Of a stretch of 57,446 bases of DNA, positions 49,304 through 57,402 are shown piece by piece. Within the stretch, counting starts at the first letter, position 1; each line of letters opens with the position of its first letter. Position numbers and translations under genes: made by a program. A model generated the notes under the pieces. It did not search any database and was not told where the DNA came from. It saw only the letters and a list, made by a program, of their open reading frames with translations. This DNA is from Pseudomonadota bacterium (lineage in GTDB: Bacteria > Pseudomonadota > Alphaproteobacteria > Rhizobiales > Aestuariivirgaceae), in the NCBI GenBank assembly GCA_963205315.1, contig CAUJIO010000085.1, positions 1-57,446 on the forward strand. The letters run 5' to 3'.

Positions 49304-49660
49304 TCAGTTGTCCCAGGCTTGCACGGTCGTCTGCCGGACAATGCCCTTGGGACCGAGCTCCGCCGTGCTGGAGGCGATGACCCGCGTACCATCGCCATAC
49401 TTGCAGCCCTGAACGAAGGCCAGGCTGTTGCCCTCGATCAGTCCCATCTCGACAGTGTGGGTCATGTCGCGGCTGTAGACATCGTCAAGAAAGTCGCCAA
49501 TTTCCTTGGCGCCCTTGATCGTACGCGGTTTGCTCGGGGGATTGTCGTTGTCGATGATGGTGAGGACCGCATCATCGGCATAGTAGGACTTGAGGCTTGC
49601 GGCATTGCGGGTTTCCACCGCCTTGCGCAGCCCATTGATCGTCAGTTTGGTGTTGGTCAT
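49304..49660 (-). CDS. NTF2-like (SnoaL/DUF4440-type) protein
   Basis: 118 residues from ATG 49660. The pattern is that of an NTF2-like cone fold: a helix (LRKAVETRNAASLKSYYADD), DAVLTIID, IKGAKEIGDFLDDVY, then alternating strands to a C-terminal RQTTVQAWDN. Members are small ligand-binding proteins or isomerases. The catalytic function is not predictable. Its promoter shares an operator with the divergent TetR gene, so it is a likely TetR target. Confidence 0.75.
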   Translation of the reverse strand: MTNTKLTINGLRKAVETRNAASLKSYYADDAVLTIIDNDNPPSKPRTIKGAKEIGDFLDDVYSRDMTHTVEMGLIEGNSLAFVQGCKYGDGTRVIASSTAELGPKGIVRQTTVQAWDN

Positions 49661-49715
49661 GAGGCTCTCCGTCAAGCGGCCAGAAGGCGGGTTGCGGCAC
49701 AGCACGTCAAAATGC

Positions 49716-49733
49716 CTGAACATTCACGTTCAG
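49716..49733. promoter_or_regulatory. Inverted repeat CTGAAC-N6-GTTCAG
   Basis: Perfect 6-bp arms in the TetR/NTF2 intergenic region, just downstream of the NTF2-gene start of transcription. A second possible regulator site. Confidence 0.35.
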
Positions 49734-49736
49734 CGC

Positions 49737-49770
49737 TTGTGTTTTTACCTAGTAGTAAGTAAAATGTCAA
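49737..49770. promoter_or_regulatory. Overlapping divergent promoters with central operator
   Basis: Plus strand: TTGTGT (49737-49742), 17 bases, TAAAAT (49760-49765), towards tetR. Minus strand: TTGACA (49765-49770), 17 bases, TAAAAA (49742-49747), towards the NTF2 gene. A 22-bp near-palindrome, TTTTAC...GTAAAA (49743-49764, 9 of 11 base pairs), fills the shared spacer, so one bound repressor would close both promoters. Confidence 0.55.
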
Positions 49771-49837
49771 TCAACAAACTTGACTAGACACCTAAGTGTG
49801 ATGGCACCGAGCAAGGGTTGAGTGGAGCGCGCAGAAC

Positions 49838-50425
49838 GTGCAGATGGATCGACACCACGGCTCCGGCGAAACCTCCGAGCGCATACTCGACATTGCCCAG
49901 CAGCTTGTGCAGACGCGGGGCTACAACGCCTTCAGCTACGCCGACATCGCTGCGGCGCTGCAAGTCACCAAGGCAAGCCTGCATTATCATTTCCCGTCCA
50001 AGGCCTCGCTGGGGCTTTCGCTCATCTCGCGCTACGAGCACCGCTTTCGCCACCTGCTGGAGATCATCGCCGGCAAGGACGAGCCGGCAGCCGAACAGCT
50101 CAGAAGCTACATGTCGGTCTATGCGGGCGTTCTGGCTGATCATCGCATGTGCTTGTGCGGCATGCTGGCCGCCGAGTTCGAGACGCTGCCCAAGCCCATG
50201 CAGTCCGCGCTCGATCACTTCTTCGGCATGAACGAGACGTGGCTGGAAACCGTGCTTCGGAATGGGCTGCAAGATCAGTCGTTGCGTTTTGACGAAGAAC
50301 CGCGCGCCCTGGCGCAGTTCATCGTCGCCGCGCTCGAAGGTGCAATGATGTTGGCCCGTTCGCATGCCGATGACGGCCGGTTTCAAGCATCCGTCCGCCG
50401 GCTGCTGGCGGGCCTCGGCATATAG
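49838..50425 (+). CDS. TetR/AcrR-family transcriptional regulator
   Basis: 195 residues if GTG 49838 is used (GGAG ten bases upstream); ATG 49844 is two codons later. The N-terminal helix-turn-helix is complete: ERILDIAQQLVQTRGYNAFS, YADIAAALQVTKASLHYHF. The ligand domain contains RMCLCGMLAAEF, with two Cys in a CLC arrangement that could sense thiol-reactive compounds, as in NemR-like regulators (inference). Probably autoregulated and controlling the divergent NTF2-like gene through the shared operator. Confidence 0.88.
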   Translation: MQMDRHHGSGETSERILDIAQQLVQTRGYNAFSYADIAAALQVTKASLHYHFPSKASLGLSLISRYEHRFRHLLEIIAGKDEPAAEQLRSYMSVYAGVLADHRMCLCGMLAAEFETLPKPMQSALDHFFGMNETWLETVLRNGLQDQSLRFDEEPRALAQFIVAALEGAMMLARSHADDGRFQASVRRLLAGLGI

Positions 50426-50480
50426 ACGCCAGCGGCGAAGGCCGGTATCCTGGCAAGCGTTCCGGGGAGGAGTACCGATA

Positions 50481-50771
50481 CTGCTTATCATCTATGTGGC
50501 CGCGGTGTCTGGCTTCTGCTTCCTGGCTTTTGCCTGGGACAAATACTGCGCCATGCGGGGACTGTGGCGGATTCCTGAAAAGACACTGCTCATGCTGGCA
50601 GCGATCGGCGGCACACCAGGAGCATTTGCCGGTCAGCGCGTCCTGCGCCACAAGACACAGAAGCAGCCCTTTGGTACTTACCTGCTGCTGATCGCCATCG
50701 CGCAAGCCATCGGCATTTTGGCGCTGATCGTCCTGAGCGGCGGTTCCGCCGCCGCCCTGCTGCTGATTTGA
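50481..50771 (+). CDS. DUF1294 membrane protein (probable CTG start)
   Basis: 96 residues if read from CTG 50481, which lies 8 bases after GGGGAGGAG. No ATG, GTG or TTG fits that site; GTG 50496 would cut into the first helix. The DUF1294 motif is FAWDKYCAMRGLWRIPEKTL, then GGTPGAFAGQRVLRHKTQK and a second hydrophobic helix. Function unknown. Its 3' end lies 4 bases from the convergent GrdB-like gene. Confidence 0.7.
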   Translation: MLIIYVAAVSGFCFLAFAWDKYCAMRGLWRIPEKTLLMLAAIGGTPGAFAGQRVLRHKTQKQPFGTYLLLIAIAQAIGILALIVLSGGSAAALLLI

Positions 50772-50775
50772 TCCG

Positions 50776-51675
50776 TCAACGGAGCGTTTCGCGAATTTCG
50801 CGCGCCGTCTCCTTGCCACGGTTGAATTCAACGCGCCGCCGCGCGATCTCGTCCGGCGAAAGCCGCTCGACATTGCAGTAGTCGAGCTTCCAGCCGTGAT
50901 CGGTGCTCCACGCGAGCGGTGATTGCACTGTCGTGCGCGGTGCCTGCGCATGTTCCAGCAAATCGAGTGCACGCTTGAGTGTCAGGTCCTGAGAGGCGGC
51001 ATCGCCGGGCTTGCCTGCCGCATTGCCCAGAGGAAAGTCGCTGAACAGCAATCGTGGCACGCCCACATGTTCGACAATGTCCCTAGCACATCCCATGATG
51101 ACAGTGGATATGCCTTCGTCTTCCAGCGCCCGCGCCGCGAGGCTGACACTCTGATGGCAGACCGGGCAATTGGGTACGAGGATCGCGGCATCCGCGTGTA
51201 CGGCCTTCACGCGGGCCACGAGGTCCGGACAGTCGATGTCGATGGTCGTCCGCCGGCTGCGATTGGTCGGCAGGCCGAAGAAGAATGGAGCAACAGCACC
51301 GGCGCGCCCCGAGGCAACAGCGCGCCGCAACGCCGGGAGCGGGAAATATGTATTCTGGTCTTCTGCCGTCGTGTGCTGGCGGTCGATGGCCACATGCGAA
51401 ATGCGCAAGTCAGGATCCTTGTCCGTATTGCCCGCGTAGACCTGATAGAATTTCGCTGCCGCATTGTAGGGCGCGCCCGGGCCCTGATCGCCCTTGCCCG
51501 GTTGATAGGGCGCGGCCGTCGTCACCATGGCGATCCGGCACGCGCTCAAAGGCTTCAGCAAAGGCTGGAACGGCACACCGTCAAACTGCGCCCAGACGTA
51601 GGGCGCATCAAAGCCCAGCGCCGCGTAGTAGCTGCGGATGCGCGGCAAGTAGGCGATGGGGTCGCTAGCTGACAC
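50776..51675 (-). CDS. GrdB/PrdB-like reductase component (glycine/sarcosine/betaine reductase family)
   Basis: 299 residues. Matches by eye the selenoprotein B family of glycine/sarcosine/betaine and D-proline reductases: RIAMVTTAAPYQPG, DLRISHVAID, a Pro-rich PLPALRRAVASGRAGAVAP, then LVPNCPVCHQSVSLAARALE and FPLGNAAGKPGD. A CPVC pair (Cys170 and Cys173) sits where a redox Cys or Sec would be expected, and no in-frame TGA interrupts the gene. There is no signal peptide. It overlaps the MttB-like gene by 11 bases. The partner proteins GrdA and GrdC are not seen, so a complete classical reductase is unlikely. Confidence 0.75.
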   Translation of the reverse strand: MSASDPIAYLPRIRSYYAALGFDAPYVWAQFDGVPFQPLLKPLSACRIAMVTTAAPYQPGKGDQGPGAPYNAAAKFYQVYAGNTDKDPDLRISHVAIDRQHTTAEDQNTYFPLPALRRAVASGRAGAVAPFFFGLPTNRSRRTTIDIDCPDLVARVKAVHADAAILVPNCPVCHQSVSLAARALEDEGISTVIMGCARDIVEHVGVPRLLFSDFPLGNAAGKPGDAASQDLTLKRALDLLEHAQAPRTTVQSPLAWSTDHGWKLDYCNVERLSPDEIARRRVEFNRGKETAREIRETLR

Positions 51676-53221
51676 TGTTGGGCAGTTGCTCCTCGCGCCG
51701 CGCGATGAAATCTCTCAGCCCTTCGGCAATGCCTTCGTCAAGCTTAGGCTCTTCGTAATTCGCCAACATGATGCGTGCCTTGTCCCGGCCGCGCGTGTCG
51801 TGGTCCTTGGAACCTTCCGCCGACCATTGCTCGAAGGAATTGAAATCCATGATCGAGGGAATGAAGAAGGCCTTCTCGAAATGCTCGAGCGTATGCTGGG
51901 TGCCGAGGAAATGCCCGGCGGGGCCAACTTCGCGCACCGCCGCCATCGCCTCCTTGAAGTCGTCGAACTTGAGGCCACCGGCATACTTATACCAGCCGAC
52001 AAGCTGCTCGGCATCAGTCACGAATTTCGAGTAACCGCAGGCAAGCCCCGCCTCGAGCCAGCCCGCCACATGCCAGATGTAATTGGCGCCGGACAGGATC
52101 GCCGCATGCATCAGCATGTTGGCCTCGTAACCGGCCTGCGCGTCGTTCAGCTTCGAGCCAACGTGGAAACCGGACGTGCGCCATGGCAGCTTGTACTTCC
52201 GGGCGAGGGCGCCCATCAGATACATCATCTGGGCTGCTTCCGGAGTGCCGCCCATTGGGGCGCCGGTCTTCATGTCGACGGTCACCATAAACTGGCCGTA
52301 GATGGCCGGCGCGCCCGCACGGATCAGCTGCGTGTAGGCCACACCCGCCAAGGCCTCGGCATTCACCTGCGCGACCGCACCGACAGCCGAAGCGGACGTC
52401 GAAGCGCCGCACAGTGCGAAGGGGGCTGCGATGATGGGCTGGTTGCTGCGGGTATAGACCCGCATCGCATCGAGCATGGTCGAGTCCCACACCAGCGGCG
52501 AGTTGCAGTTGGTGATCGAGACAAGAACTGTATTGTCCTTCACATAATCGTCGCCGAAGACGATGCCGGCCATCTTCATCACGTCCTCGGCCCGCTCCTT
52601 CGAGGTGACGATGCCCATGAACGGCTTGTCGGAATACTTAAGCGCCGAGTGAATGATATGCAGATGGCGCTTCGGCACCGGAATCTCCATCGGCTCGCAG
52701 CAGATCGAGCTTGAGGAATGCAGTGCCGGTGACATGTAGGCAAGCTTGTGAAAGTTGTTGAGATCGGCAAGCGAGCCATAGCGGCGGTTGTTATCCAGAT
52801 CGCGCACGTAAGGCGCGCCATACATCGGCACAAACACGGTGTTCTTGCCGCCGACTTTGACCGTGCGTTCCGGGTTGCGGGCATTCAGCGTGAATTCCGA
52901 TGGCACCTTGGCGACGAGATCGAGCAACAGCCCGCGGTCGATCCTGACGCGCGTGCCCGAAACATCGGCGCCCGCCGCCTTCCACATTGAAATCGCCTCG
53001 TCGTCACGGAACTCGCAGCCGACCTCTTCAAGGATTTTCAGCGACTCGTCGTGGATCAGTTCAACTGCCTCGTCCGGAACCATCTGGTAGACGGGAATTT
53101 CACGCACCAGTGTCGGAAAGGATGCCATCGGCGCGGCACGCAAGGCCCGCCGGCCTTCGCGCCCACCGGCCCGGCGCGCCGTGGGTATAGTGTGGGCCAG
53201 GGAGGGCGTCGAGTCGGTCAT
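51665..53221 (-). CDS. Trimethylamine methyltransferase family protein (MttB superfamily, non-pyrrolysine)
   Basis: 518 residues of the COG5598 MttB superfamily. A TIM barrel with PDEAVELIHDESLKILEEVG near the N-terminus, then PMYGAPYVRD, NCNSPLVWDS, GGTPEAAQMMYL and FHVGSKLNDAQAGYEANML. Archaeal MttB uses pyrrolysine encoded by an in-frame TAG. Here there is none, as in MtgB-type glycine-betaine and related demethylases. No corrinoid protein is nearby. It lies 90 bases downstream of lysR and is translationally coupled to the GrdB-like gene. Likely substrate: a quaternary or methylated amine, by inference. Confidence 0.85.
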   Translation of the reverse strand: MTDSTPSLAHTIPTARRAGGREGRRALRAAPMASFPTLVREIPVYQMVPDEAVELIHDESLKILEEVGCEFRDDEAISMWKAAGADVSGTRVRIDRGLLLDLVAKVPSEFTLNARNPERTVKVGGKNTVFVPMYGAPYVRDLDNNRRYGSLADLNNFHKLAYMSPALHSSSSICCEPMEIPVPKRHLHIIHSALKYSDKPFMGIVTSKERAEDVMKMAGIVFGDDYVKDNTVLVSITNCNSPLVWDSTMLDAMRVYTRSNQPIIAAPFALCGASTSASAVGAVAQVNAEALAGVAYTQLIRAGAPAIYGQFMVTVDMKTGAPMGGTPEAAQMMYLMGALARKYKLPWRTSGFHVGSKLNDAQAGYEANMLMHAAILSGANYIWHVAGWLEAGLACGYSKFVTDAEQLVGWYKYAGGLKFDDFKEAMAAVREVGPAGHFLGTQHTLEHFEKAFFIPSIMDFNSFEQWSAEGSKDHDTRGRDKARIMLANYEEPKLDEGIAEGLRDFIARREEQLPNSVS

Positions 53222-53278
53222 GGCTGCTTCTCCATCAGTCTGGCTGTCATTTCAGCGCCTCTGCACGGATTGTTTCAA

Positions 53279-53291
53279 GCGAAGACTTCGC
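53279..53291. promoter_or_regulatory. Palindrome GCGAAGACTTCGC upstream of the MttB-like gene
   Basis: Two perfect 6-bp arms around one central base, about 60 bases upstream of the methyltransferase ATG and just after the lysR stop. Could be an operator or a short hairpin. Confidence 0.35.
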
Positions 53292-53311
53292 ATGCATCGA
53301 ATGAACTAAAC

Positions 53312-54208
53312 TCAATCGATGGAGGACAGAAGCCAGTTGCGCAGGACTTCGGCTTCCTGCTTCAGGGGCCGCTTGGCGGACCACGTGAGAAAGAAGGATT
53401 GCGGAGCGGCGATTTCAGCCGGAGAGATTTGCGCCAGCACGCCACGTTCAATCAGTGGTTTTACCAGGCTGAGCCAGCCCAGCGCCACGCCCTGGCCCGA
53501 CTGTGCCGCCTGCAAGGCGATGACGTAACTGTTGAACCGCCGCACGGTGAGCTTGCGGTGTGGCGCACCGGCTTCCCGCAGGAACTCGGCCCAGGTTGTC
53601 CACGACCAGTCGACACCCTCCACTGACAGCAGCGGCAGGACGGACAGGTCATTGACCGTCCTTGCCTTGTTGTCTGCAATGAAGGCAGGTGAAGCGACCG
53701 CCACGATGCGGTCACCGAACAGCAGGGTCGACTCTTCTTCCGGCCAGTTGCCGTCGCCGTATCGAACGCGCAGATCCACATCGTTTCGATGCAGATCCTG
53801 AGTCCGGTCGGATATGATGTGATCGATCACAATGTCCTGATGCGCGGCCCAGAAATCGCCCAGCCGCGGCATCAGCCAAAGCTGGGCAAAGGCCATGGTT
53901 GTGCCAATCGACACACTGCGCAGGCTGCCCATCTGCCCGACCTCCCGCAAGGTCGCGGCCACCCGTTCAAATGCTTCGCCGAGGCTGCGCGCCACGGCCT
54001 CGCCTTCCGGCGTCAGAGCCAGCGCACGATGCAGGCGGAGGAAGAGCGGCTTGCCGATCTCGTCTTCGAGAGTCTTGACTTGCTTTGACACCGCACCGGG
54101 CGTGACGTTCAACTCCTGCGCGGCTCGGGTCAGGCTCAAATGCCGCGCCGCTACCTCGAAGGCGGCAAGCGCATTGAGAGAAGGCAGGCTGTAGTGGCGG
54201 CGGATCAT
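53312..54208 (-). CDS. LysR-type transcriptional regulator, GcvA-like
   Basis: 298 residues. Winged helix-turn-helix in the first 65 residues (LNALAAFEVAARHLSLTRAA, VTPGAVSKQVKTLE), then the periplasmic-binding-protein-like effector domain (SIGTTMAFAQLWLMPRL, DVDLRVRYGDGNW). The form is that of the GcvA subgroup, whose members often control amino acid or amine metabolism. It is transcribed divergently from the TRAP genes and upstream of the MttB/GrdB-like pair on the same strand, so it probably controls both. Confidence 0.88.
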   Translation of the reverse strand: MIRRHYSLPSLNALAAFEVAARHLSLTRAAQELNVTPGAVSKQVKTLEDEIGKPLFLRLHRALALTPEGEAVARSLGEAFERVAATLREVGQMGSLRSVSIGTTMAFAQLWLMPRLGDFWAAHQDIVIDHIISDRTQDLHRNDVDLRVRYGDGNWPEEESTLLFGDRIVAVASPAFIADNKARTVNDLSVLPLLSVEGVDWSWTTWAEFLREAGAPHRKLTVRRFNSYVIALQAAQSGQGVALGWLSLVKPLIERGVLAQISPAEIAAPQSFFLTWSAKRPLKQEAEVLRNWLLSSID

Positions 54209-54297
54209 GGCAGCAATCTAGCGCCATTTTTCAGTTGAAGAAAGCTCATTCGAATCTGTCAGTCATCCGCCAATTCGGTTTATTGCGTTACAGAGAG

Positions 54298-54326
54298 TTG
54301 ACCGATTGTAAAAGTCGTTACACTAT
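54298..54326 (+). promoter_or_regulatory. Predicted promoter of the TRAP operon
   Basis: TTGACC (54298-54303), 17 bases, CACTAT (54321-54326). It lies in the 194-base lysR-dctQ gap, where LysR-type sites would be expected upstream, for example around 54250-54290. Confidence 0.5.
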
Positions 54327-54402
54327 GTCCAAAATCTGAAATGCATGAGGCAAACCGGCGCCAGACCGGAAGCCGGAAAAAAGAGCGGGGACGTCAAGGA
54401 GC

Positions 54403-54909
54403 ATGCCGAACTGGATCAAGACATATGTCCGGTGGGTCGAGGCGATAAACCGCCGGGTCGGCCGCGTCACCATGTACCTGCTGTTCGTGATCATGGGCAT
54501 CATGCTGTGGTCTTCCGCTTCGAAGGTGGCTCACCTTCCGGCAAACTGGACGCTTGAGACCGCCCAGTTCCTCTTTGTCGCCTATTATCTCCTGGGCGCC
54601 CCCTATTCGATGCAGCTCGATAGCAATGTGCGCATGGACCTCCTCTACGGCCGTCTCAATCCGCGCACCCAGGTGGCCTGGGACATCATCACAATCTTCT
54701 TCCTCATCTTCTACATCGGCGTGATGCTCTATGGCGCGGTGGAGAGTACGGCCTATGCCTTCGAGGTGGGCGAGCGCAACCCGACGGCCTGGCGCCCGCC
54801 GCTCTGGCCCATCAAGCTCGTGACCTGCATCGCCTTCTTCCTCCTGCTTCTTCAGGCCACAGCGCATTTCATCCGTGACTTGGCCACGCTGCGCAAGGTT
54901 AGCATCTGA
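54403..54909 (+). CDS. dctQ: TRAP transporter small membrane subunit (DctQ)
   Basis: 168 residues, four membrane helices. N-terminal IKTYVRWVEAINRRVGRVTM, then WTLETAQFLFVAYYLLGAPY and MDLLYGRLNPRTQVAWDII, the DctQ pattern. AAGGAG is very close to the ATG. The stop and the dctM start overlap by one base (TGATG). It joins DctM in the inner membrane to drive Na-coupled uptake of the ligand delivered by DctP. Confidence 0.9.
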   Translation: MPNWIKTYVRWVEAINRRVGRVTMYLLFVIMGIMLWSSASKVAHLPANWTLETAQFLFVAYYLLGAPYSMQLDSNVRMDLLYGRLNPRTQVAWDIITIFFLIFYIGVMLYGAVESTAYAFEVGERNPTAWRPPLWPIKLVTCIAFFLLLLQATAHFIRDLATLRKVSI

Positions 54910-56237
54910 TGTCCTACGAACTCATTGCGGGACTGATGTTCTCGACCCTCATGCTGATGATGCTGACGGGTCAGCGGGTCTTCGGCGCCATCGGCTTCGT
55001 GGCGGTTGTCGCCGCCCTCTGGCTGTGGGGCACCGGCGGCTCCGACATGGGCTACTCCGCCGTCATGAAGCTCATGAAGTGGAACGCGCTGCTGACACTG
55101 CCGATGTTCATCTTCATGGGCTACGTCATGTCGGAGACGAAGCTCGCCGCCGACCTTTACCGCATGTTCCATGTGTGGTTCGGCCCGATACCGGGCGGGC
55201 TGGCGATCGGCACCATTCTGCTGATGGTGATGATCTCGGCGATGAACGGCTTGTCCGTCGCGGGCATGGCGATCGGCGCCACCATTGCGCTGCCGCAGCT
55301 GGCCCAGAACGGCTATCGCAAGGAGATGATCTCCGGCGTCATCCAGGCCGGCTCGTCGCTCGGAATCCTCATTCCGCCTTCCGTCGTGCTCGTTCTTTAT
55401 GCCATGATCGCAAGGCAACCCGTGGGCCAGTTGTGGCTCGCCGGCGTCGTTCCGGGCCTCCTGATGGCGGGCATCTTCATCATCTACATCGCCATCCGCA
55501 CATGGTTGAACCCGGAAATCGGACCGCCGCTCAGCAAGGAAGCGCGCGCCGAAATCACCATGGCCGAGAAGATCAGACTGCTGCGCGCCGGGCTGCTGCC
55601 CATCTTCATCTTCTCCGTCATCATCATTCCTTTCGTCATGGGCTGGGCCAGCCTCAATGAAGCCTCGGTTATCGGTGCGCTTGCAACTGTGCTCGTTGCG
55701 GTCGCCAAGCGCCGCTTTACCTGGGCGGTGTTCGAGGAATCGACGCGGCAGACCCTCGCCATCACCTGCATGTTCATGCTCATCATCCTTGCGGCCCTGT
55801 CCTTCGGCGCCGTCTTCGACGGGCTGGGCGCCGGCAAGGTGATCGAGAATGTCTTCGTCGGTGAACTGCATCTCGAGCCCTGGCAGATCCTGGTGCTGAT
55901 GCAGCTCTCCTTCCTCATCATGGGCATGTTCCTTGACGACACGGCGATGCTGGTGATCGTGGCGCCGCTCTATGTGTCACTGGCCGACCATCTGGGCTAC
56001 AGCCTCATCTGGTACGGCGTGCTCTACACCATCACCTGCCAGATCGCCTATCTGACGCCGCCTTTCGGCTACAACCTGTTCCTCATGCGCGCCATGGCGC
56101 CCAAGGACTACACGCTGCCGATGATCTACCGGTCGGTCGTGCCGTGGGTGCTGCTCATGTTGCTGACACTCATCATCATCATGGTCTTCCCGCAGATCGC
56201 ACTCTGGCTGCCGGAACAGGTTTACGGGCCAAGCTAA
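54909..56237 (+). CDS. dctM: TRAP transporter large membrane subunit (DctM)
   Basis: 442 residues with about 11-12 membrane helices. GSSLGILIPPSVVLVLYAMI, MFLDDTAMLVIVAPLYVSLA and YLTPPFGYNLFLMRAM are diagnostic of the translocating subunit. Coupled to dctQ by a 1-base overlap and followed 48 bases later by dctP. The length is slightly greater than the common 425-430. Confidence 0.93.
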   Translation: MSYELIAGLMFSTLMLMMLTGQRVFGAIGFVAVVAALWLWGTGGSDMGYSAVMKLMKWNALLTLPMFIFMGYVMSETKLAADLYRMFHVWFGPIPGGLAIGTILLMVMISAMNGLSVAGMAIGATIALPQLAQNGYRKEMISGVIQAGSSLGILIPPSVVLVLYAMIARQPVGQLWLAGVVPGLLMAGIFIIYIAIRTWLNPEIGPPLSKEARAEITMAEKIRLLRAGLLPIFIFSVIIIPFVMGWASLNEASVIGALATVLVAVAKRRFTWAVFEESTRQTLAITCMFMLIILAALSFGAVFDGLGAGKVIENVFVGELHLEPWQILVLMQLSFLIMGMFLDDTAMLVIVAPLYVSLADHLGYSLIWYGVLYTITCQIAYLTPPFGYNLFLMRAMAPKDYTLPMIYRSVVPWVLLMLLTLIIIMVFPQIALWLPEQVYGPS

Positions 56238-56285
56238 ATTCCTGGACGCCGGGATGTACGAATTGAAAAGAGAAGGAGAAAGAGG

Positions 56286-57323
56286 ATGACGTCTAGACGC
56301 AATCTACTGTCGACCGGTCTCGCAGCCGGCGCGGCAACCCTCGCGGCACCCGCCGTGCTGGCTCAGGGCGCGCCCATCAAGTGGCGGCTCCAGACCTATG
56401 CCGGCGCCGCACTCGGTGCGGAAGTGGTGAAGCCCGCGATCGATCTCTTCAACCAGATCGCCAACGGCCAGATGGAAATCGAGCTGTTCTTTGCCGACCA
56501 GCTCGTACCGACGGCCGAGCTCTTCCGCGCCATGCAGAAGGGCACGATCGACGCCGTGCAGTCGGACGACGACTCGATGGCGAGCCCGACCGAGGTGACG
56601 GTGTTCGGCGGTTACTTCCCGCTGGCGCTGCGCTACTCGCTCGACGTTCCGGTGCTCTTCAACCACTGGGGCCTCGACCAGATCTGGAAAGAGGAATACG
56701 GCAAGGTCGGCATTCAGCACATCTCGGCCGGCTCGTGGGATCCGTGCAACTTCTCGACCAAGAAGCCGGTCAATAAGCTCGAGGATCTGCAGGGCCTGCG
56801 CATCTTCACCTTCCCGACGGCAGGCCGCTTCCTGTCGCGCTTCGGCGTCGTGCCGGTGACCGTGCCGTGGGAAGACGTGCAGGTGGGCCTGCAGACCGGC
56901 GAGCTCGATGGCATCGCCTGGAACGGCGTCACCGAGGACTACACCTCGGGCTGGGCGGATGTGACCGGCAACTTCCTCACCAACAACATCTCGGGCGCCT
57001 GGATCGGTCACTTCTTCGCCAACCAGGAGAGCTGGAACAAGGTGCCGCCCCACCTGCAGCAGATGCTCAAGGCTTGCTTCGACAGCTCGCACTACTATCG
57101 CCAGCACTGGTACTGGAATGGCGAGGCGCGCCTGCGCGTCGAGAAGGACAAGCTCAAGTATACCACGATCCCGGCTACCGAATGGGCCAAGGTCGAAGAG
57201 GAAGCCAAGAAGTTCTGGGACGAGATCGCGGCTGAAAGCGAAGTCAAGGCCAAGATCGTCAGCATCATCAAGCAGTACAATGAAGTGATGGTGAAGGCTG
57301 GTCCTCCCTACCGTTACAGCTGA
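56286..57323 (+). CDS. dctP: TRAP transporter substrate-binding protein (DctP), Tat-type signal
   Basis: 345 residues. The N-terminus TSRRNLLSTGLAAGAATLAA, then PAVLAQ, is a twin-arginine-like signal. The mature protein follows the DctP fold: IKWRLQTYAGAALG, GTIDAVQSDDDSM, PVNKLEDLQGLRIFTFPTAG with the usual carboxylate-binding Arg region, then VQVGLQTGELDGIAWNGVTE. The ligand is unknown; neighbours suggest a methylated amine or betaine, although most TRAP ligands carry a carboxylate, which betaines do. GAAAAGAGAAGGAGAAAG precedes the ATG. Confidence 0.92.
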   Translation: MTSRRNLLSTGLAAGAATLAAPAVLAQGAPIKWRLQTYAGAALGAEVVKPAIDLFNQIANGQMEIELFFADQLVPTAELFRAMQKGTIDAVQSDDDSMASPTEVTVFGGYFPLALRYSLDVPVLFNHWGLDQIWKEEYGKVGIQHISAGSWDPCNFSTKKPVNKLEDLQGLRIFTFPTAGRFLSRFGVVPVTVPWEDVQVGLQTGELDGIAWNGVTEDYTSGWADVTGNFLTNNISGAWIGHFFANQESWNKVPPHLQQMLKACFDSSHYYRQHWYWNGEARLRVEKDKLKYTTIPATEWAKVEEEAKKFWDEIAAESEVKAKIVSIIKQYNEVMVKAGPPYRYS

Positions 57324-57346
57324 TCCGCGCCCCACGATCTGAATGG

Positions 57347-57375
57347 AAAGGGCGGCCCTCGGGGCCGCCCTTTTT
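57347..57375 (+). terminator. Rho-independent terminator of the TRAP operon
   Basis: AAAGGGCGGCCC (57347-57358), TCG loop, GGGCCGCCCTTT (57362-57373), then TT. A perfect stem directly after dctP. Confidence 0.92.
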
Positions 57376-57402
57376 GTTGCCGGGACTGCCGCAAAGCCAG
57401 TA

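Follow-up and report, generated by a model that had tools for sequence, protein, structure and literature searches.

A putative LysR-controlled amine-uptake locus combining an EtoX-type TRAP importer, a non-pyrrolysine MttB, and an optional PrdB-related protein

We analysed a stretch of 57,446 bases (the window), which is the whole of contig CAUJIO010000085.1 from a genome of the Aestuariivirgaceae (Rhizobiales; 4.67 Mb, 112 contigs, 99.86% complete). Close to one end of this contig lie genes for a LysR-type regulator, a protein of the MttB superfamily, a protein related to the reductase subunits GrdB and PrdB (hereafter GrdB-like), and a divergent set of three genes, dctQMP, for a tripartite ATP-independent periplasmic (TRAP) transporter; the contig ends just past dctP. 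All six genes have open frames. The features of the locus are listed below; labels with L, G, and C denote the loci, genomes, and contigs used in the comparisons.

50776..51675, reverse strand: GrdB/PrdB-like protein of 299 residues, cysteine form (C170-P-V-C173); open frame, 82 bits to TIGR04483, with C170 on the selenocysteine position of PrdB
51157..51168, reverse strand: codons of the CPVC motif (C170 at 51166-51168); the first Cys codon is TGA in nine relatives
51665..51675, reverse strand: overlap of 11 bp between the end of mttB and the start of the GrdB-like gene, whose GTG start lies inside the end of mttB; same overlap in L037 (ATG) and L040 (GTG)
51665..53221, reverse strand: MttB superfamily protein (PF06253), non-pyrrolysine, 518 residues; profile match, frame without in-frame stop
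53312..54208, reverse strand: LysR-type regulator; top NCBIfam score to the GcvA model, under its cut-off
54307..54322, forward strand: palindrome TGTAA-AAGTCG-TTACA, proposed LysR operator in the lysR-dctQ gap; sole exact site in the window, found in 0 of 100 shuffles
54403..54909, forward strand: DctQ, small TRAP permease, EtoV-like; family match of 72 bits
54909..56237, forward strand: DctM, large TRAP permease, EtoW-like; family match of 220 bits
56286..57323, forward strand: DctP, solute-binding protein (SBP) of the EtoX (ethanolamine) type; family match of 88 bits, 549 bits to PDB entry 4uab, nested among EtoX linked to ETAGA genes
57350..57378, forward strand: intrinsic terminator with a 9-bp core stem and a T-run; identified from sequence and fold

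An earlier note, made from the letters of this DNA, had described the same layout, from lysR and mttB, with its overlap, to the divergent transporter genes and their terminator. Open frames, family scores well beyond chance level (99/72 bits for LysR), and the hairpin fold confirm it. The terminator 3' of dctP is a strong hairpin by folding (core at 57350-57370), followed by TTTTTGTT. A pattern-based scan for promoters and terminators gave background levels, with the dctP terminator not among its listed sites, and a comparison with PHROGs was uninformative.

The evidence for a functional unit comes mostly from the regulator. Genome G640 has the same divergent lysR-mttB/dctQMP layout, with DctP and MttB each 93% identical to those of the window. 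We recorded the importer beside window-type mttB (827-1087 bits) in the window and in 21 fetched loci; a locus of G126 was also fetched, in which the gene caller picked no mttB. The 22 loci include 2 with TRAP/EtoX (window and G640), 6 with an APC permease, 1 with a ProXVW/choline-type ABC transporter, 3 with an ABC transporter of the SBP_bac_8 type (PotD-like), and 7 with an Opp/Dpp-type SBP, two of which also have an amino-acid-type ABC receptor. No importer was recognised in the last three, one of which is cut by a contig end. The importer beside mttB has been exchanged among at least five types. The exact palindrome TGTAA-N6-TTACA recurs in 3 of the 16 other loci scanned—in G640 (TRAP) and in G135 and G068 (APC permease)—always in the gap between lysR and the importer. 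These are also the three other loci in which lysR scores at least 497 bits to that of the window. The exact site is absent from eight loci lacking a lysR above 300 bits, among which L252 and L083 have a version with one mismatch, placed inside the GrdB-like gene in L083. That TRAP and APC versions have the palindrome in common argues more strongly than anything else for a single regulon of importer and mttB, and we regard lysR, mttB, and the importer as probably one regulated unit. The earlier note had claimed a single uptake-and-cleavage unit. The G640 layout and the palindrome, present in four genomes, support the common regulation of lysR, mttB, and importer, but the pairing with the GrdB-like protein and the import of a betaine find no support. 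A palindrome common to importer and mttB is no proof of a common substrate. The gene of one B12-dependent demethylase appears to have kept its regulator and palindrome in its closest relatives through repeated importer exchange, which makes the transporter beside such an enzyme a poor guide to its substrate.

The transporter itself is most similar to ethanolamine importers. DctP has 4uab/4xf5 as best solved relative (E 4e-164), and the next PDB match reaches only 67 bits. Entry 4uab is Csal_0678 with bound ethanolamine, held by a platform Glu (as described in the accessible part of PMC12410723), and this protein lacks the carboxylate-binding Arg usual for TRAP receptors (excerpt of PMC4646407). 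For EtoX of Phaeobacter, the accessible text of PMC10132767 gives a Kd of 7.9 uM for ethanolamine and reports that phosphocholine and phosphorylethanolamine are not bound. In a tree of 46 proteins, DctP of the window and its G640 orthologue are inside a 19-row set (97/80) with 6 ETAGA-linked members. Two glutamates, E206 and E217, do not vary among 35 EtoX relatives and the DctP of the window, and may include the counterpart of the platform residue Glu220 of Csal_0678. No other EtoX was found in the genome, where one further match at E <= 1e-5 has 26% identity. The genome encodes a homologue of ETAGA (65%), of the ethanolamine gamma-glutamylation pathway, on contig C6, in the order GMC oxidoreductase, RpiR-like, amidohydrolase, ETAGA, ADH-like (L292 5650-11609), with no transporter recognised within the 20 kb read. 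The window dctP is thus away from the ETAGA genes. Such adjacency is not universal: in a class sample, EtoX occurs in 43 of 337 genomes, and ETAGA is near it in 11 of the 40 EtoX loci that we fetched (8-17 kb each). The window therefore resembles the EtoVWX systems (Csal_0678 / MED193_10041) in its three-gene set, in the similarity of DctP to the ethanolamine-bound structure, and in the ETAGA operon of its genome, but differs in that dctQMP is divergent from lysR-mttB instead of adjoining ETAGA, and in that DctP has a diverged stem and changes at seven conserved sites. Ethanolamine or a near relative is our best guess for the ligand of DctP, with room for a shift. The import of a betaine-like substrate, proposed in the earlier note, is at odds with the grouping of DctP among EtoX proteins, for which the ligands on record resemble ethanolamine and not betaines. 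We rejected DctP as a betaine binder on these grounds, that is, on homology only.

The second component, MttB, matches the PF06253 profile over its entire length (676 bits, residues 17-514, profile positions 1-500 of 500). It is classed as non-pyrrolysine because its frame is uninterrupted, with no amber codon. The earlier note had found neither a corrinoid protein nor an activase, and neither GrdA nor GrdC, and had expected a chemistry unlike either textbook system. The first two seemed missing because only one stretch was viewed: the genome has one PF02607 corrinoid protein on contig C103, adjoined by a DUF1638 protein and a homocysteine methyltransferase-like protein, and one RACo-type activase on contig C110, with a Pterin_bind protein at 1.7 kb from it. 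We thus rejected the absence of corrinoid partners, and the suggestion of a different chemistry is not supported; GrdA and GrdC were not searched genome-wide. The C103 corrinoid protein, RACo, and the C110 Pterin_bind protein may be the cognate partners of MttB, one of 8 PF06253 proteins in the genome. The modelled pocket residues of MtgB (Y94, N199, R309, and H345 in the available part of PMC6855144) are all kept in MttB, as Y134, N238, R348, and H384 (mapped by hand, assuming an offset of one). The seven paralogues in the genome keep the pocket N, R, and H in 5-6 cases and the Y in one, and the counterpart of F353 is G392. In Ruegeria pomeroyi, MtgB/MtgC/MtgD demethylate glycine betaine aerobically, and up to seven PF06253 genes are found per genome (excerpt of PMC12478193). 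As far as that excerpt describes it, the Mtg system shares with our genome a PF06253 protein without pyrrolysine, corrinoid and pterin-binding proteins, a RACo/RamA-type activase, a DUF1638 protein, and several paralogues. It differs in that lysR and a TRAP importer accompany the mttB of the window, and that the corrinoid and activase genes are on other contigs. In the accessible portions of the literature, the MttB relatives without pyrrolysine described so far act on quaternary amines.

The GrdB-like gene is a different matter. It is single-copy in its genome. In a sample of the order, it is present in 24 of 297 genomes and in none of the 8 other congeners, 7 of which have the mttB orthologue. 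MttB (E <= 1e-160) is found in 34 of the 297 genomes, and the two occur together in 5, against 2.7 expected under independence, which is not a strong signal. Within the genus, 3 of 37 genomes (window included) encode the GrdB-like gene, always directly behind mttB with the 11-bp overlap, and 7 encode EtoX (E <= 1e-40); only the window genome has both. G640 keeps lysR-mttB-dctQMP, and neither the 20 kb read nor the rest of its genome shows a credible trace of the GrdB-like gene. We then gathered 97 distinct GrdB-like loci, after removing from 108 the window itself (L009), those with too short a context (L021, L024), distant ones or fragments (L030-L032, L035, L036), and three duplicates (one being L010 = L092). 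Only 6 of the 97 have mttB within 3 kb; the figure is 5 among the 72 loci for which 3 kb or more is available on either side (window not counted). There is none within 3 kb of available sequence in the other 91, which include 67 loci with full 3-kb flanks. The six linked loci represent up to three lineages. In L066, the gene is 75 bp behind a different mttB; in L010, L052, and L083, a gene on the opposite strand stands between the two; and in L070 the GrdB-like gene has the same downstream neighbours, with no mttB in the 2 kb available upstream. The loci adjacent to mttB cluster in the GrdB tree (101 rows with the window, without L009, L030, L031, L032, L036, and three duplicates), which is weakly resolved near the window and has an unsettled bootstrap. 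In summary, we see the GrdB-like gene as an optional extra, which overlaps mttB in a few congeners. We rejected an obligate MttB-GrdB pair given the congeners with mttB alone, G640, and the rate of linkage.

These data bear directly on the proposal of the earlier note that the MttB/GrdB-like pair is a single novel enzyme, which would cleave an imported betaine without a corrinoid. In its favour are the 11-bp overlap, shared by three genomes of the genus, and the linkage to mttB in up to three lineages. Yet the survey of neighbourhoods, which the note had itself suggested, showed that co-occurrence is largely rare, an outcome that the note had named as counting against its idea: 7 of the 8 other congeners in the order sample have mttB and none has the GrdB-like gene, most GrdB-like loci have no mttB nearby, intervening genes separate the two in L010, L052, and L083, the neighbours in L070 are kept without mttB, and corrinoid partners exist in the genome. 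We find such an enzyme very improbable.

TetR and SnoaL-like genes (the latter named by eye) adjoin the GrdB-like gene in the window (49304-50771) and in L280 (7685-8819). The TetR/SnoaL-like block is between mttB and a MarC-like gene in the window and in G641, and DUF1294 was seen in the window only. The GrdB-like gene looks as if it had been brought in with this shared block.

By homology, the GrdB-like protein is a Cys form of a PrdB-related family. It matches TIGR04483 (PrdB) over residues 36-253 (82.4 bits, E 3e-23, against a model cut-off of 300) and TIGR01918 (GrdB) at 30 bits (cut-off 65), with no Pfam match at E <= 0.001. The C170-P-V-C173 motif (C169/C172 in alignment A1, which begins at residue 2) aligns with U-G-T-C of PrdB from an annotated Terrisporobacter plasmid, such that C170 matches the selenocysteine and C173 the Cys at +3. 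A UxxC motif is given for GrdB and PrdB alike in the accessible part of PMC13188914. The protein thus shares with PrdB, the selenoprotein subunit of D-proline reductase, the homologous region, the selenocysteine/Cys position, and the Cys at +3; it differs by its score far below the cut-off, by being 58 residues longer than Terrisporobacter PrdB, by its Cys form, by adjacent genes that are not PrdA/PrdC, and by relatives mostly from Pseudomonadota. Of the 108 relatives, 107 have the motif in its Cys or TGA form, the exception being L032, a fragment without the region. This conservation is partly selected because the relatives include the best 80 of 544 confirmed matches, with PNCPVCHQ as one of six search patterns; the 28 GrdB-like loci of the order sample were not selected by motif.

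Nine relatives (L016, L030, L031, L033, L035, L036, L047, L063, and L085) have TGA exactly at the first Cys codon. Four of them (L016, L033, L035, L036) are paralogues in a single genome, G257, which thus has TGA at the motif of all its GrdB-like genes. A hairpin of six stem pairs with the loop CGTG(A/T), 3' of the TGA, is complete in 8 of the 9 TGA forms and in 3 of 97 Cys-form loci. The pairs covary: L030 and L036 keep all six even if five and four of them, respectively, differ from the common type. The case for this hairpin rests on pair conservation because its folding z-scores are modest (0.0 to -3.5, with a mean of -0.18 for 60 Cys forms). The TGA forms are likely selenocysteine forms in Pseudomonadota, and the exchange of Cys and TGA at this position suggests a nucleophilic or redox role for C170. 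A structural model of the protein (30-sequence alignment, predicted local distance difference test score 82.7, predicted template modelling score 0.86) had no PDB match at E <= 0.001 (best E 0.016, template modelling score ~0.2), and a phmmer search of PDB sequences gave a single match at E 0.46. In public records, the family goes by the name 'glycine/sarcosine/betaine reductase selenoprotein B family protein'; among the papers listed by our literature searches, none dealt with the family, and one search gave only papers on rumen Synergistota. The family is widespread and, to judge by these searches, uncharacterised, and its probable interchange of Cys and selenocysteine makes it a starting point for the study of thiol/selenol chemistry beyond the anaerobes where this is known. 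Two plasmids carry GrdB-like genes in other contexts: beside cobalamin genes in Haematobacter (L296 5968-12501) and beside SelO in Roseomonas (L294 5968-8353).

Could the GrdB-like protein act after MttB? It might use Cys to cleave the C-N bond of the partly demethylated amine reductively, as a second step, or reduce the oxygen-exposed corrinoid, in both cases with no pyruvoyl partner. The overlap with mttB, the homology with PrdB, with Cys or TGA retained where PrdB has selenocysteine, and the Haematobacter copy beside cobalamin genes are consistent with such roles, but most sampled members of the family are not near mttB, and no similar solved structure was found. A search of the genome for PF09338 (PrdA/GrdE) gave no match, but control genomes were equally silent, which makes the absence of a partner unusable as evidence. 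We deem a role of this kind unlikely. Its most specific version has a Cys-form PrdB translationally coupled to MttB, which would demethylate an imported amino-alcohol betaine before a PrdB-like dithiol cleaves the C-N bond without a pyruvoyl subunit; this we hold to be very unlikely.

Taken together, the observed gene content, orthology, conserved palindrome, partner genes, and Cys/TGA exchange lead us to a reading that we consider fairly probable: a LysR-controlled amine-scavenging locus with EtoVWX-type import, a corrinoid-dependent MttB, and an optional, self-standing GrdB-like protein. For the ligand, the route of methyl transfer, the regulation, and the GrdB-like reaction, we infer the following. 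DctQMP would be a TRAP importer of the EtoVWX type, taking up ethanolamine or a closely related amino alcohol. As a conventional non-pyrrolysine methyltransferase of the quaternary-amine:corrinoid kind, MttB would hand the methyl group to the C103 corrinoid protein, from which the C110 pterin-binding methyltransferase would transfer it to tetrahydrofolate, with the RACo-type protein re-reducing the corrinoid. LysR would act through TGTAA-N6-TTACA to drive the importer, and probably lysR-mttB as well, a role kept through the exchange of importers. The GrdB-like protein would most likely be a self-standing thiol reductase or reductive lyase, with C170/C173 in place of the selenocysteine/Cys of PrdB. 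Under this reading, the parts are known and their arrangement is new: one LysR would control both an importer of the ethanolamine type and a corrinoid methyltransferase, and the PrdB-like protein, from an uncharacterised redox family, would be a dispensable passenger.

Several observations weigh against this reading. Orthologous mttB genes stand beside importers with very different predicted ligands, and mttB is found in none of the 40 EtoX loci fetched from the class sample. The DctP of the window and of G640 share a long stem branch (0.52), and 7 sites conserved in at least 90% of the 35 EtoX relatives are changed in both, 4 of them at positions 201-221, around the invariant E217. The exact palindrome is lacking in five scanned loci with a lysR of 414-434 bits. 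Finally, the seven chromosomal f23 loci, from the same order, have no corrinoid gene near their mttB orthologue, such as is seen on two Aminobacter plasmids. A shift in the ligand of DctP is possible because of the long stem and the changes at conserved sites near E217. Since the importers beside mttB differ so widely in predicted ligand, the neighbourhood fixes neither the substrate of MttB nor its link to ethanolamine. We place this substrate between N-methylated amino alcohols and cyclic betaines.

The case for cyclic betaines comes from these Aminobacter plasmids (NZ_CP062119 and NZ_CP015007), where lysR is followed by mttB, an Opp-type SBP, a corrinoid protein, a racemase, a flavoprotein, and a pyrroline-5-carboxylate reductase-like protein (L295 2227-11398 and L297 9143-18101). 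On the first plasmid, MttB is 86% identical to that of the window, and the corrinoid gene, two genes downstream, encodes a protein 84% identical to the corrinoid protein of our genome. The racemase is of the mandelate racemase type, with 4e8g, 2pmq, and 4h2h ('mandelate racemase/muconate lactonizing enzyme') as best PDB relatives, which we take to be the hydroxyproline-betaine epimerase group. The flavin oxidoreductase is related to the old yellow enzyme and to trimethylamine dehydrogenase, and the pyrroline-5-carboxylate reductase-like protein scores under its cut-off. The operon resembles the window in its orthologous mttB behind lysR, and differs from it by its own corrinoid protein and betaine-type enzymes and by the lack of a TRAP set and of a GrdB-like gene in the stretch shown. 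The gene set suggests that a proline-type betaine is processed by way of a corrinoid. MttB could accordingly be a demethylase of a cyclic amino-acid betaine, such as proline or hydroxyproline betaine, with a TRAP importer that shares only the regulator or is unrelated. Racemase and flavoprotein are also found behind mttB and the SBP in 2 of the 7 f23 loci (L249, L250). However, the racemase is missing in the other five, no companion of the Aminobacter type was found near mttB in the fetched loci of the window's genus (phmmer E <= 1e-15), the ligands are named by family only, and importer and mttB have a palindrome in common in four genomes. We view a cyclic betaine as possible, short of probable.

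A single line of substrates is the other option: N-methylated ethanolamines (choline, dimethyl-, or monomethylethanolamine) would enter through the TRAP importer and be demethylated by MttB, and the resulting ethanolamine would be processed by the ETAGA genes on C6. The conserved divergent layout, the palindrome, and the ETAGA genes fit this scheme. In G228, the importer beside the orthologous mttB has a permease and an ATPase that pass the cut-offs of TIGR03416 (choline) and TIGR01186 (betaine/proline/choline). An APC permease found beside orthologous mttB matches TIGR00907 below its cut-off; the corresponding TC group presumably includes a yeast choline permease. A second neighbourhood of EtoX and mttB, with another mttB, exists in G637. 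There is also a precedent for cobalamin-dependent demethylation of choline in Eubacterium limosum (excerpt of PMC12155760). Against the scheme, EtoX has a primary amine as ligand and is reported not to bind phosphocholine, and the non-pyrrolysine MttB relatives take quaternary amines, as far as the available excerpts describe them; mttB is absent from the 40 other EtoX loci; and the Aminobacter context points elsewhere. We find this option rather doubtful, and retain the amine-scavenging locus, in which importer and MttB would be co-regulated.

Two further details concern the importers. In the congener G637 (L275 6831-11468), the second EtoX-type dctQMP is convergent with its mttB, which scores 516 bits. 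In two congeners (L251 10965-16231 and L281 1200-6817), the APC permease is accompanied by a GlpA-like oxidase, a small FAD protein, and an FGGY kinase, a glycerol-type cassette divergent from lysR-mttB.

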